A program made the translations under genes and the position numbers. Of a stretch of 64,000 nucleotides of DNA, positions 939 through 7,592 are shown piece after piece. The notes beneath the pieces were generated by a model. That model ran no database searches. It was not told the origin of the DNA and saw only the letters and a list, made by a program, of their open reading frames with translations. Every line of letters starts with the position of its first letter. Position 1 is the first letter of the stretch. The stretch is from Microvirga terricola (GTDB lineage Bacteria > Pseudomonadota > Alphaproteobacteria > Rhizobiales > Beijerinckiaceae), in NCBI RefSeq assembly GCF_011777495.1, contig NZ_JAATJS010000002.1:124001-188000 (forward strand), read 5' to 3'.

Positions 939-1796
939 TCAAGCTAGACGCACCCAATCGACGGCTTCAATCGCATAAGGAGCAAACAGGAAATCGCGGA
1001 TCGCGACAATCCGGTTATCCTGCCAGTCGAGCAGAACGAAATGCGCGGGCTTTTCCATTGGACCACCGCTGTCGAACACCAGCATCGCCAGGCGCCCTTC
1101 GACCGCTCCGAAGACGAAACGCCACTTCGTTTCCTCGGCATACCGGGTAAAGTAACGGCCGATGCTCTCACGGCCCTCGAGCTTGAGCCGGTTCACCAGA
1201 TCCAGCTTTACATCGTCCGCGAGCATGGCGCGGATTGCATCGAAATCCCCGTTCTGGAACAGGCGGACATAGGCGGCCATCTTCTGTCGGCTGGCATCCG
1301 ACGTCAGAGGCAGCCGCATATCGTCTGGCTGTTGAGCCAGCTGCCGCAGCGCCACCCGCCCGCGCTGGAGTGCCGATTTGGCCGCGGCCGGTGTGCAATC
1401 GGCGATGGCCGCGATCTCTTCGACCGAGTGGCCGAGAACGTCCTTGAGAATCACGGTGCAGCGCTGAAGTTCGGGCAGTTGCAGGAACGTTTGAAAACCG
1501 ACCACGACAATGTCTGCTTCGGGCATCGGCGCGTCTTCCAGATCTTCGGTGAGCGGAACGACGTTGTTGCGGGAGCGTTGGCGCAGAAAATCCAGGCTCG
1601 TATTATGGGCGATGCGGAGCAGCCAGGCTTCGAGATTTTCCGCTACCGTGCCTTCCGCCCGCGCGCGAAGGGCCTTGATCAACGTATCCTGTAGCACGTC
1701 CTCCCCATCCACGGCCGAACCGACCATGCGAGCGCAATAGCGGTGCAGCCGTGGCCTGAGCTCCCGCAGGAGCTTCTCGAAGTCATCCGCATTCAT
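939..1796 (-). CDS. ECF-type RNA polymerase sigma factor with SnoaL-like C-terminal domain
   Basis: This 285-residue protein has sigma region 2 at about 5-75 (RPRLHRYCARMVG, then EDVLQDTLIKALR) and region 4 at about 105-155 (LPELQRCTVILKDVLGHSVEEIAA, then AAAKSALQRGRVAL). The remaining 120 residues resemble a SnoaL/NTF2 fold (YVRLFQNGDFDAIRAMLADDV, then RYFTRYAEETKWRFVFG). ECF factors with such tails (ECF41/SigJ-like groups) control their activity through the tail rather than through an anti-sigma factor, and none is encoded nearby. The WLPEP and DGGGR signatures often quoted for ECF41 are not evident, so it may belong to a sister group. The likely partner gene is the upstream ABM monooxygenase on the same strand, 114 bp away. 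Confidence 0.85.
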   Translation of the reverse strand: MNADDFEKLLRELRPRLHRYCARMVGSAVDGEDVLQDTLIKALRARAEGTVAENLEAWLLRIAHNTSLDFLRQRSRNNVVPLTEDLEDAPMPEADIVVVGFQTFLQLPELQRCTVILKDVLGHSVEEIAAIADCTPAAAKSALQRGRVALRQLAQQPDDMRLPLTSDASRQKMAAYVRLFQNGDFDAIRAMLADDVKLDLVNRLKLEGRESIGRYFTRYAEETKWRFVFGAVEGRLAMLVFDSGGPMEKPAHFVLLDWQDNRIVAIRDFLFAPYAIEAVDWVRLA

Positions 1797-4768: not shown

Positions 4769-5677
4769 TTAGGGCGCGCTGAGCACGCCTCGGCATTCCG
4801 CAGGCAACTGCGCCATCGTCAGCGGCGGGCGCGGCTTGCCGGGCTTCGGGTGCAGCATGTCGGGCGTGAACCATTGCGCCAGCTCCGCGCCGCAGCCATC
4901 GCCCGCGGGTGGCGGATCCTGGTCCTCGCAGGCGTTGCCCTGCGGACAAGCGATGCGGATGTGGAAGTGATAATTGTGCCCCCACATCGGCCGCACCTTC
5001 GTCAGCCATGAGCGATCATTGCCAGCCTCGCGGCACAAAGCTTTCTTGATCGCCGGATTGACGAAGATCCGCGCCACCTCCGGCTCCTTCGCGGCAGCGC
5101 GGAGGAGGGCGGTGTGCTGCGGCGTCCAGGTCTGCGGATTGATGTCCAGCATGTCCTCGCGGACCACGTTGGTCGCCGGCAGCTCCTCACGCTCCTGACG
5201 GGTGAGACGGCGCGTGGGCATCGGCGTCAGCCAGACATCCGCATCGAGTCCGACCTGATGCGAGGCATGGCCGGTTATCATCGGGCCACCGCGCGGCTGC
5301 GAGACATCGCCAATCAGAAGGCCGGGCCAGCCGTTGATCTGTGGGGCTCGCGCGGACAGTTTTTTAAGCAGCGCGACCAGCTGTGGATGCCCCCAGTTGC
5401 GGTTGCGCGACAGGCGCATGACCTGCCACGTGTCGCCGTCGATGGGGATCGCGCTCGCGCCTGCGACGCAGCCCTTGGCGTAGCTGCCGATGGATTGTGA
5501 AGGCAATGCGGCGGGCTTGTCGCGGCGGCCGAATAGTTCCTTTGCCGCCGTCCCTGGTGCGTCGGGATTGGCGAGCGGCGGGAGTGGTTGGGGATTGAGC
5601 GTACCCTTGTCCTGGGCGGAAGCGGAGCCGCCGATGAGGAGGGCCGCGCACATGGCCAAGCATCGAATCTTACTCAT
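4769..5677 (-). CDS. mepA: Penicillin-insensitive murein endopeptidase
   Basis: MepA is a periplasmic zinc metallopeptidase that cuts the D-alanyl-meso-diaminopimelate cross-links of peptidoglycan. The 302-residue product has a signal peptide (CAALLIGGSASA, cleavage near 22). The metal motif HASHQVGLD supplies His137 and Asp145, and the later HNYHFHIRIACP supplies the remaining ligands. A GGSYAKGC-like segment (GSYAKGCVAGA) and paired cysteines agree with the family. A proline-rich linker (30-45) precedes the domain. The length is close to the usual 270-300 residues. Confidence 0.93.
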   Translation of the reverse strand: MSKIRCLAMCAALLIGGSASAQDKGTLNPQPLPPLANPDAPGTAAKELFGRRDKPAALPSQSIGSYAKGCVAGASAIPIDGDTWQVMRLSRNRNWGHPQLVALLKKLSARAPQINGWPGLLIGDVSQPRGGPMITGHASHQVGLDADVWLTPMPTRRLTRQEREELPATNVVREDMLDINPQTWTPQHTALLRAAAKEPEVARIFVNPAIKKALCREAGNDRSWLTKVRPMWGHNYHFHIRIACPQGNACEDQDPPPAGDGCGAELAQWFTPDMLHPKPGKPRPPLTMAQLPAECRGVLSAP

Positions 5678-5775: not shown

Positions 5776-5801
5776 GGAACCGGCATTTCAGCCGGGGCGT
5801 T
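5776..5801 (+). promoter_or_regulatory. EcfG (general stress response) type promoter
   Basis: GGAAC at 5776-5780, a 17-base spacer and CGTT at 5798-5801 match the alphaproteobacterial EcfG/RpoE2 consensus exactly. The inferred start of transcription, near 5808, lies about 30 bases before the ATG of the PRC-barrel gene. It sits in the gap after the divergent mepA gene. This is motif-level evidence only. Confidence 0.7.
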
Positions 5802-5836: not shown

Positions 5837-6247
5837 ATGCCGACGGTTGCGCAGGGTGGCGGCGCCAAAATTGCGCATGAGCTGATCGCCAGCGACAAGG
5901 TGGAAGGGACGCCGGTCCGTCGCATGGACGGGGAGAAGATCGGGACCATCGAGCGCGTGATGATCGATAAGAAATCCGGCAAGGTCGCCTATGCGGTCAT
6001 GAGCTTCGGCGGGTTCATGGGGTTAGGCGAGGAATACTACACGCTGCCCTGGGGAGTGCTGACCTACAATACCCGCCTGGATGCCTATGAGCTCAATCTC
6101 TCCGAGGAGCAGCTCCGCGGTGCGCCGCGCCGCAACGCCGAGGGACACGACCTTTCCTACGATCGCGAATGGGAGGAGCACGTCCATCGCTATTACAATG
6201 CGAGCCCCTATTGGGATGAGGACGATCCCATGAGCGTCGGCCGCTGA
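5837..6247 (+). CDS. PRC-barrel domain protein
   Basis: A 136-residue soluble protein whose residues 15-95 form a PRC barrel: VEGTPVRRMDGEKIGTIERV, then KSGKVAYAVMSFGGFMG, then YYTLPWGVLTY and LSEEQLRGAP. PRC-barrel proteins of this type are common in Hyphomicrobiales and often belong to the general stress regulon; their ligand is unknown. The acidic, tyrosine-rich tail (HRYYNASPYWDEDDP) is typical of the group. The ATG at 5837 has GGGAGCGAG upstream. An EcfG-type promoter precedes the gene and a strong terminator follows, so it is a single-gene unit. Confidence 0.88.
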   Translation: MPTVAQGGGAKIAHELIASDKVEGTPVRRMDGEKIGTIERVMIDKKSGKVAYAVMSFGGFMGLGEEYYTLPWGVLTYNTRLDAYELNLSEEQLRGAPRRNAEGHDLSYDREWEEHVHRYYNASPYWDEDDPMSVGR

Positions 6248-6271
6248 CGGGCGGTTGCCCTCCAAAAGAAA

Positions 6272-6300
6272 ATCGCCCGGCCGGAGCCGGGCGATTTTTT
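6272..6300 (+). terminator. Rho-independent terminator
   Basis: A perfect 10-bp stem (ATCGCCCGGC / GCCGGGCGAT) with loop CGGA and a T6 tract. It follows the PRC-barrel gene by 24 bases. The A-rich left flank lets it also work for the convergent histone-like gene. Confidence 0.9.
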
Positions 6301-6362: not shown

Positions 6363-7034
6363 TTAGCGCTTCTTCGCGCCCTTGCGGGGAGCCGAACGCT
6401 TGGCGACGGTCTTCGACTTCTTCGTCGCCGAGGTACGGCTCGTAGCGGCGGCAGCGCGCTTCGTGGCCTTCTTGGCGGCGCGGGGCTTCGAAGCCGTGCT
6501 CCTGGCCTTCACCGCGGTGCGGCTGGCCGAACGAGCGGAGGTCTTCTTCGCGGAACGCGCGACGGTCTTCTTCGCAGCGGTCTTGCGAGCCGTGGTCTTC
6601 TTCGCAGCCGTCTTCTTGGCAACGGTCTTGCGGGCCGAAGCCTTCACCGCCTTCTTAGCGGCGGGCTTCTTAGCGGCGGACTTCTTGGCCGCCGAACGTG
6701 CGGAGGTCTTCTTCGCAGCGGTCTTGCGGGCCGAGGCCTTCACGGCGCTCTTCTTCGCCGAAGCCTTCACCGCCTTCTTAGCGGCGGGCTTCTTGGCGGC
6801 GGGCTTCTTGGCCGCGCTCTTCTTCACAGCGCTCTTCTTCACAGCGCTCTTGGCGGCCGATTTCGCAGCTGCCTTCTTAGCGGCGGGCTTCTTCGCAGCA
6901 GCTTTCTTGGCGCCGGTCTTGGCCGCCTTCTTGCTGGTCGAGCGACGCGCGCTGGTCTTCTTCTTGGTGCGGGTCGCACCGGTATCACCCGTGAACAGCA
7001 TGGTCAGCGGGTTGGACTTATCATCTGTCGGCAT
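6363..7034 (-). CDS. Histone H1-like Lys/Ala-rich DNA-binding protein
   Basis: The 223-residue product is almost entirely Lys, Ala, Arg, Ser and Thr after a short ordinary start (MPTDDKSNPLTMLFTGD). From about residue 25 to the end it consists of tandem AAKKPAAKK, KKSAVKK and ARKTAAKKT-like repeats, resembling the C-terminal tail of eukaryotic H1 and bacterial Hc1/AlgP-type proteins. Such proteins bind and compact DNA nonspecifically. The start at 7034 is fixed by GGAGG six bases upstream; the frame extends further but without a site. A consensus EcfG promoter lies 50-74 bases upstream, so stress or stationary-phase induction is likely. Repeat number may vary between strains. Confidence 0.85.
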   Translation of the reverse strand: MPTDDKSNPLTMLFTGDTGATRTKKKTSARRSTSKKAAKTGAKKAAAKKPAAKKAAAKSAAKSAVKKSAVKKSAAKKPAAKKPAAKKAVKASAKKSAVKASARKTAAKKTSARSAAKKSAAKKPAAKKAVKASARKTVAKKTAAKKTTARKTAAKKTVARSAKKTSARSASRTAVKARSTASKPRAAKKATKRAAAATSRTSATKKSKTVAKRSAPRKGAKKR

Positions 7035-7083
7035 AGCCGCCTCCTTCAAGGGCCTTCGCGTGCAACCGTCACGCTTGCAAGGC

Positions 7084-7108
7084 AACGTCGTTATACCAAG
7101 CGGGTTCC
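7084..7108 (-). promoter_or_regulatory. EcfG (general stress response) type promoter
   Basis: On the minus strand GGAAC (7108-7104), a 16-base spacer and CGTT (7087-7084) match the EcfG/RpoE2 consensus perfectly. Predicted transcription would begin near 7076, about 40 bases before the ATG of the histone-like gene. Confidence 0.75.
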
Positions 7109-7592
7109 GATTAACGGAAAGTGTAGAAAGTAGAACGATCACATTTTCTGTGGATACTTTGACCCGTTGGTAGGTCTGAACTTGCGCTCCGAGAGCGCCC
7201 TCGCGAGCGGCGAATGCGAGTCGCAAATGCGTTGCTTGGGCGACTCTTGGATCATCTGAAACGCGATAGAAGAGGCGAATTGTGATTCAAAAAATCCTTT
7301 CTAAAACAATGCGTTACAGGAATTGAAAAACGCCGTAGCGCTTCGTCAGCATGCGCGCGGCGCGCTTTCAGACACATCGTCGACGGAGTTGCGCGGCACG
7401 CGTTTGAAGACTCCGAAATCGGCTCTTCAGAGGCTCGAAAAAAAAGTTGTGATGCGCGTCGAAAAAACGCGGTTTGGAGTCGCCGAGGGGCGTCTGCCCT
7501 GCGCAGCGAGTCAAGAATCACCTGCGCCGATACGTGACGTAGCGGCAGAATTTGTCCTCGCGATACGCCTGTCGAGGCGCATATGAGGTGGC
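7109..7592. other. Non-coding stretch between histone-like gene and DMT exporter
   Basis: No gene is supported in these 484 bases. Short frames on both strands lack ribosome sites and recognisable products. Composition is less GC-rich near 7110-7150 and 7260-7340. I see no strong hairpin. It separates two divergent genes and probably holds both promoters. Confidence 0.5.

Follow-up and report, generated by a model that had tools for sequence, protein, structure and literature searches.

The regulatory system closest to the locus described here is the general stress regulon of Alphaproteobacteria controlled by EcfG/RpoE2/SigT. The two have in common the consensus GGAAC-N16,17-CGTT, the PhyR-NepR-EcfG core and a PRC-barrel target of the type listed for that regulon, while an H1-like target was not found in the accessible portions of the literature searched and a nearly invariant spacer and leader are peculiar to the H1-like promoter. 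The parts of the published accounts available to us give a consensus GAAC-N16,17-C/GGTT for M. extorquens (PMC4814048), in agreement with the motif found here, and name PRC-barrel genes as targets of EcfG or RpoE2 elsewhere (PMC6599016, PMC6180224). A literature search, outside of which lay subscription papers and supplementary tables, found no description of a link from EcfG to an H1-like protein. On the side of the protein, the Chlamydia protein HC2/HctB (PF07382) and the NCBIfam H1-like models share with the Microvirga protein the character of a Lys/Ala-rich low-complexity polycation with a variable repeat length; the Microvirga protein differs from HC2/HctB in its score below the cut-off, in its N-terminus and in its control. 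Dps is a stress-linked nucleoid protein with a folded ferritin-like shell; if our reading is right, the Microvirga protein would be a stress-linked nucleoid protein as well, but a low-complexity polycation, and no relation between the two is suggested. Finally, as far as the accessible part of the source goes, Pseudomonas AlgP and PhaF resemble it in their basic H1-like tail, for which DNA binding is expected, and differ in a separate N-terminal domain (124 aa in AlgP), which the Microvirga protein does not have (PMC9239181).

The window, i.e. the whole stretch of DNA analysed, consists of 64,000 nt of Microvirga terricola. The features of the locus are the following (start and stop in window positions).

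5776-5801, plus strand: EcfG-type promoter of the PRC-barrel gene, an exact GGAAC-N17-CGTT match
5837-6247, plus strand: PRC-barrel gene (PF05239), convergent neighbour, ATG at 5837 read from the sequence
6261-6300, no strand: long inverted repeat flanked by runs of A and T, lying between the two convergent genes, seen directly in the sequence
6363-7034, minus strand: gene of the H1-like Lys/Ala-rich protein, ATG at 7034, 223 aa, net charge +75, orthologues aligned
7035-7076, minus strand: predicted 5' leader of 41-42 nt (start inferred), with 39 of 42 positions invariant in the 45 ungapped copies
7040-7046, minus strand: Shine-Dalgarno AAGGAGG in the leader
7084-7087, minus strand: -10 box CGTT of the EcfG-type promoter, invariant in 47/47 distinct copies
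7090-7098, minus strand: extended -10-like TGGTATAAC (TGNTATAAC), overlapping the EcfG spacer, invariant in 47/47 copies save the N of TGN (A in one)
7104-7108, minus strand: -35 box GGAAC of the EcfG-type promoter, invariant in 47/47 distinct copies
7115-7134, minus strand: conserved upstream box TCTACTTTCTACACTTTCCG, a candidate protein site
7148-7156, minus strand: conserved upstream box TATCCACAG, invariant in 47/47 copies, at which genus-wide conservation starts

Our main reading, to which we assign a probability of roughly 0.6, is that the H1-like gene is a genus-wide general-stress gene encoding an EcfG-driven polycation that coats nucleic acid, and that its promoter boxes lie within a larger frozen cis-block. 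In this scheme stress would lead PhyR to free EcfG, and the EcfG-RNA polymerase would initiate at about 7075-7076; the short invariant leader and the strong Shine-Dalgarno would then let the cell make large amounts of a small low-complexity polycation, which would coat nucleic acid, most likely the chromosome, when cells are stressed or non-growing.

The predicted protein contains 27% Lys, 29% Ala and 3 acidic residues, and the net charge of its orthologues ranges from +57 to +85 (n = 31). It scored 37.2 bits against Pfam HC2 (PF07382; cut-off 40), 22.7 against NF038052 (cut-off 135) and 23 against NF038053 (cut-off 80), the last two being the NCBIfam H1-like models; "H1-like" is therefore used as a compositional description, since all these family scores fall under the curated cut-offs. 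Matches to solved structures were weak (E about 0.002) and fell on actinobacterial sigma factors. The charge points to DNA coating as the likeliest activity, and the likeliest role of the protein is to coat nucleic acid, above all chromosomal DNA, in cells that are stressed or not growing, in the manner of histone-H1-like proteins. The compaction of chromatin that the first-pass annotation had predicted is plausible on composition, charge and the sub-cut-off matches to H1-like families.

The conservation of the N-terminus has to be weighed against another reading of the same protein. Most positions of the first 23 residues (MPTD.K.NPLTMLFTGDTGATST) are kept in at least 10 of 11 aligned rows, as might be expected if the protein, still under EcfG control, were a tether whose Lys/Ala tail links polyphosphate or PHA granules to the nucleoid and whose N-terminal peptide forms the granule end; AlgP and PhaF, with Lys/Ala/Pro-rich H1-like tails, act on granule spacing, according to the part of the source available (PMC9239181). 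Yet the basic repeats start at about residue 24, with no separate N-terminal domain before them, against the 124-aa domain reported for AlgP in that same part (PMC9239181), and the N-terminal conservation lies partly at silent sites, i.e. in the nucleotides. Moreover, the peptide after residue 7 is swapped for an acidic stretch in one locus (L168, genome G007) and the N-terminal peptide is altered in another (L042, genome G002), although the promoter is retained in both, as is most of the leader. We consider the tether, the main rival, rather unlikely and retain nucleic-acid coating as the most likely role of the protein.

To compare the promoter among copies, 74 Microvirga loci were entered, 27 were removed as identical over 330 bases and 47 distinct copies were kept. 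The 141-base block of promoter and leader is present in 47 of the 48 Microvirga genomes, the one without it (G434) being an assembly of about 780 contigs. In the window the GGAAC-to-CGTT spacer is 16 nt and the promoter ends 49 nt ahead of the ATG of the H1-like gene. The first-pass annotation had placed the Lys/Ala protein behind a correctly oriented GGAAC-N16-CGTT at the right distance, and this was confirmed: the match is exact, and the motif stands at -74 from the ATG in 45 copies and at -76 in two, hence in 47/47. Since it recurs at a fixed place in all the distinct copies, we considered it to be above chance.

In two mapped S. meliloti promoters, described in the accessible part of the source, transcription starts 9 nt after CGTT (PMC6180224). 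By analogy, the transcript of the H1-like gene would start at 7075-7076 (exactly 9 nt gives 7075; the first-pass annotation had 7076). The variable bases -44 and -43 directly precede this predicted start, and the invariant leader opens at it; such a pattern of variation at the leader edge fits the predicted start and does not prove it.

The promoter-leader block is nearly frozen well beyond the two boxes, over some 200 bp that span the start codon. Precisely, 94 of the 125 positions from -125 to -1 do not vary among the 45 insertion-free copies, and neither do 20 of the 21 positions of TTGNTATAACGACGTTGCCTT. Among the Microvirga copies compared, no genus-wide conservation was found upstream of TATCCACAG, which resembles a DnaA box; both it and TCTACTKTCTACACTTTYCG are candidates for sites of protein binding. 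The promoters of the neighbouring genes offer a comparison at the same loci (29 for the H1-like gene, 28 for the PRC-barrel gene and 25 for a short-chain dehydrogenase, SDR): they differ among loci in spacer and leader, whereas the H1-like promoter hardly does. Mean pairwise identity for H1-like, PRC and SDR promoters, respectively, was.93,.72 and.64 in the spacer,.80,.31 and.42 in the 60 bp upstream, and.93,.48 and.46 in the 49 bp downstream. At fourfold silent sites the identity is.89 in the N-terminal codons of the H1-like gene (46 copies, L168 being unalignable there),.484 in its C-terminal motif (47 copies;.34 for random pairs) and, over 29 loci,.58 for the PRC gene. Wherever codon 3 encodes Thr (44 copies) it is the rare ACA, and the other three copies have ATA. 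As the block, the leader and the N-terminal silent sites exceed the neighbours and the C-terminus, we conclude that between about -125 and about +70 selection acts at the nucleotide level.

The extended -10-like element within the block may be an overlapping housekeeping promoter, with a start near 7083, and this leads to the possibility that the gene is mainly a housekeeping one, steadily expressed from TGNTATAAC, to which the EcfG boxes contribute little. The invariance of TGNTATAAC does equal that of the EcfG boxes, its sole variable base being the N (1/47). A consensus scan, however, found no sigma-70-type two-hexamer site and no -35 partner for it, the EcfG boxes and their exact spacing are kept in 47/47 copies, and both adjacent genes have stress-type promoters; we therefore regard mainly housekeeping expression as quite improbable, and EcfG-driven expression as the better reading.

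The invariance of the nine box positions, taken by itself, would arise by chance with a probability of about 0.08 by our own arithmetic, and it is weak evidence because about three quarters of the region from -125 to -1 is invariant. The case for EcfG rests instead on the exact consensus and spacing, combined with the neighbouring genes and with a nepR control. In the window the exact N16 motif occurs 3 times against 0.42 expected (0/100 shuffles reach 3), and the exact N17 motif once against 0.48 expected (39/100 shuffles reach 1). These four exact motifs comprise the H1-like and PRC-barrel promoters and two sites (1555 and 63712) within long coding frames. The frame around 1555 (939-1796, minus strand) presumably encodes an ECF-sigma-like protein with additional sequence at its C-terminus, and the GGAAC/CGTT match within it is taken as chance. 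Genome-wide, the bare GGAAC-N16,17-CGTT pattern is not enriched (58 exact sites versus 80 for the reversed control pattern), so that a single motif match proves little.

The 29 Microvirga loci reached through the conserved N-terminus (234,763 bases) contain 83 exact motifs, and all 83 precede three genes: the H1-like gene (29), the PRC-barrel gene (29) and the short-chain dehydrogenase gene (25). In L064, for instance, the PRC protein lies 27 bases behind its motif. As a positive control we considered nepR, with one locus each from 30 of the 48 Microvirga genomes, chosen as the best of a longer set of matches; the motif was present in 30/30, each time about 200 bases ahead of the NepR match. 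The NepR family is matched in 48/48 Microvirga genomes, and the genes of PhyR, NepR and an ECF sigma factor stand side by side in the genome of the window. Matches to the NepR family number from 2 to 17 per Microvirga genome, with larger genomes tending toward more. That the block is conserved for other causes and GGAAC/CGTT is an accidental match, as the exact motifs inside coding frames and the unenriched genome count could suggest, is very hard to reconcile with the 83/83 motifs preceding three adjacent genes and with the 30/30 of nepR, and we set it aside. The EcfG-driven stress control claimed by the first-pass annotation thus gained support on the side of comparison (47/47 copies, neighbour promoters, nepR 30/30 and NepR-ECF-PhyR in the genome), and in our judgement the H1-like gene is very likely under EcfG general-stress control.

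The inverted repeat at 6261-6300, which a consensus scan did not list, is a probable two-way terminator for the H1-like and PRC-barrel genes.

The leader was also considered as coding sequence and as structured RNA. The frame ahead of the ATG at 7034 is open in the genomes compared for it; an in-frame N-terminal extension was rejected on the 2-nt leader insertion in L064 and L168 and on variable positions that lie off third codon positions. We also rejected recent horizontal spread as the origin of the frozen block, because the C-terminal silent sites are near random (0.484 vs 0.34) and the place beside the PRC-barrel gene recurs in 29 loci. Covariation in the leader region was found in 0 of 32 pairs (31 sequences) and so lends a conserved RNA structure no support, and an Rfam search gave no match. 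Folding z-scores under dinucleotide shuffles were weak (0.11 for the window's own leader; 12 sequences ranged from -2.55 to +0.16). A z of about -4 came from column shuffles, which are a less stringent control than dinucleotide shuffles. A helix between leader and coding sequence appears in several folds and is unfavoured in the divergent copies, where shuffles were at least as good in a fraction of 0.57 (L042) and 0.98 (L168). As for other copies of the leader and spacer in the genome, GCGTGACGGTTGCACGCG has one match with 2 mismatches, in a coding frame read as AroQ-like, and 14 with three mismatches, and TGNTATAACGNCGTT has one match with 1 mismatch and further ones at 2 mismatches.

Further control very probably resides in the frozen cis-block: another promoter that overlaps the first, protein sites upstream (one or two), regulation through the mRNA leader, or several of these together. 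A more specific proposal, which we put forward tentatively and which may well prove wrong, is that of a genus-specific composite element of about 200 bp (upstream protein sites, EcfG promoter and an extended -10 promoter overlapping it, leader and first ~25 codons), kept near base for base while the repeats diverge freely, through which growth and general stress would jointly set the dose of a chromatin polycation, both at transcription and at translation. The near-unchanged promoter and mRNA start across the genus suggest a tightly metered output of a DNA-coating protein under stress.

Among the genomes searched, the block, which is conserved well past both boxes, was found only in Microvirga: in 396 other genomes of the order there was no convincing match, and a 24-nt match in one of them (G199; E 7e-4 for one genome, with 397 searched) lies ahead of another gene and was taken as chance. 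The protein profile matched in 21 of 149 genomes of the family (6 Microvirga and 15 others) and in 25 of 385 of the class (the window's own and 24 others), the matched loci beyond Microvirga being composition-like. No exact motif was found in the 16 loci of the 15 non-Microvirga genomes of the family, from 600 bases ahead of the open frame onward, a set that includes three long unrelated frames (L192, L198 and L201). Likewise, none was found within 350 bases ahead of the first Met in the 27 loci of the 24 other genomes of the class, a set with several unrelated proteins with Lys/Ala tails, with starts set mechanically and with two loci having less than 350 bases upstream. In these samples from outside Microvirga the link between H1-like gene and promoter was not seen, a rough negative judged on non-orthologous proteins.

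The PRC-barrel gene behaves differently: outside Microvirga the motif stands shortly ahead of it, on the same strand, in 22 of the best 24 loci among the matches listed (L144-L167), and none of these 22 has a Lys-rich frame beside it. The exceptions are L164, without the motif, and L165, which starts at a contig edge; some flanks are short. Read most simply, this distribution means that the Microvirga lineage added the H1-like gene to an older stress locus.

If our main reading is true, a low-complexity H1-like protein would extend the alphaproteobacterial general stress response to the packaging of the chromosome, in at least one genus of bacteria from soil and root nodules. The frozen block offers a ready experimental handle: the coding repeats are less conserved than the non-coding region ahead of them, and the cause of this difference would reveal how cells control the amount of a DNA-coating protein that could be toxic.

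A further observation concerns the short-chain dehydrogenase gene, which in 25 of the 29 loci (L045-L073) is divergent from the PRC-barrel gene and has its own EcfG-type promoter. It lies about 1.2-1.6 kb beyond the H1-like start codon in these loci, and the dehydrogenase of L061 belongs to PF00106. A motif-bearing dehydrogenase is absent at that place in the species of the window, where a murein endopeptidase gene (4769-5677, PF03411) takes its position.
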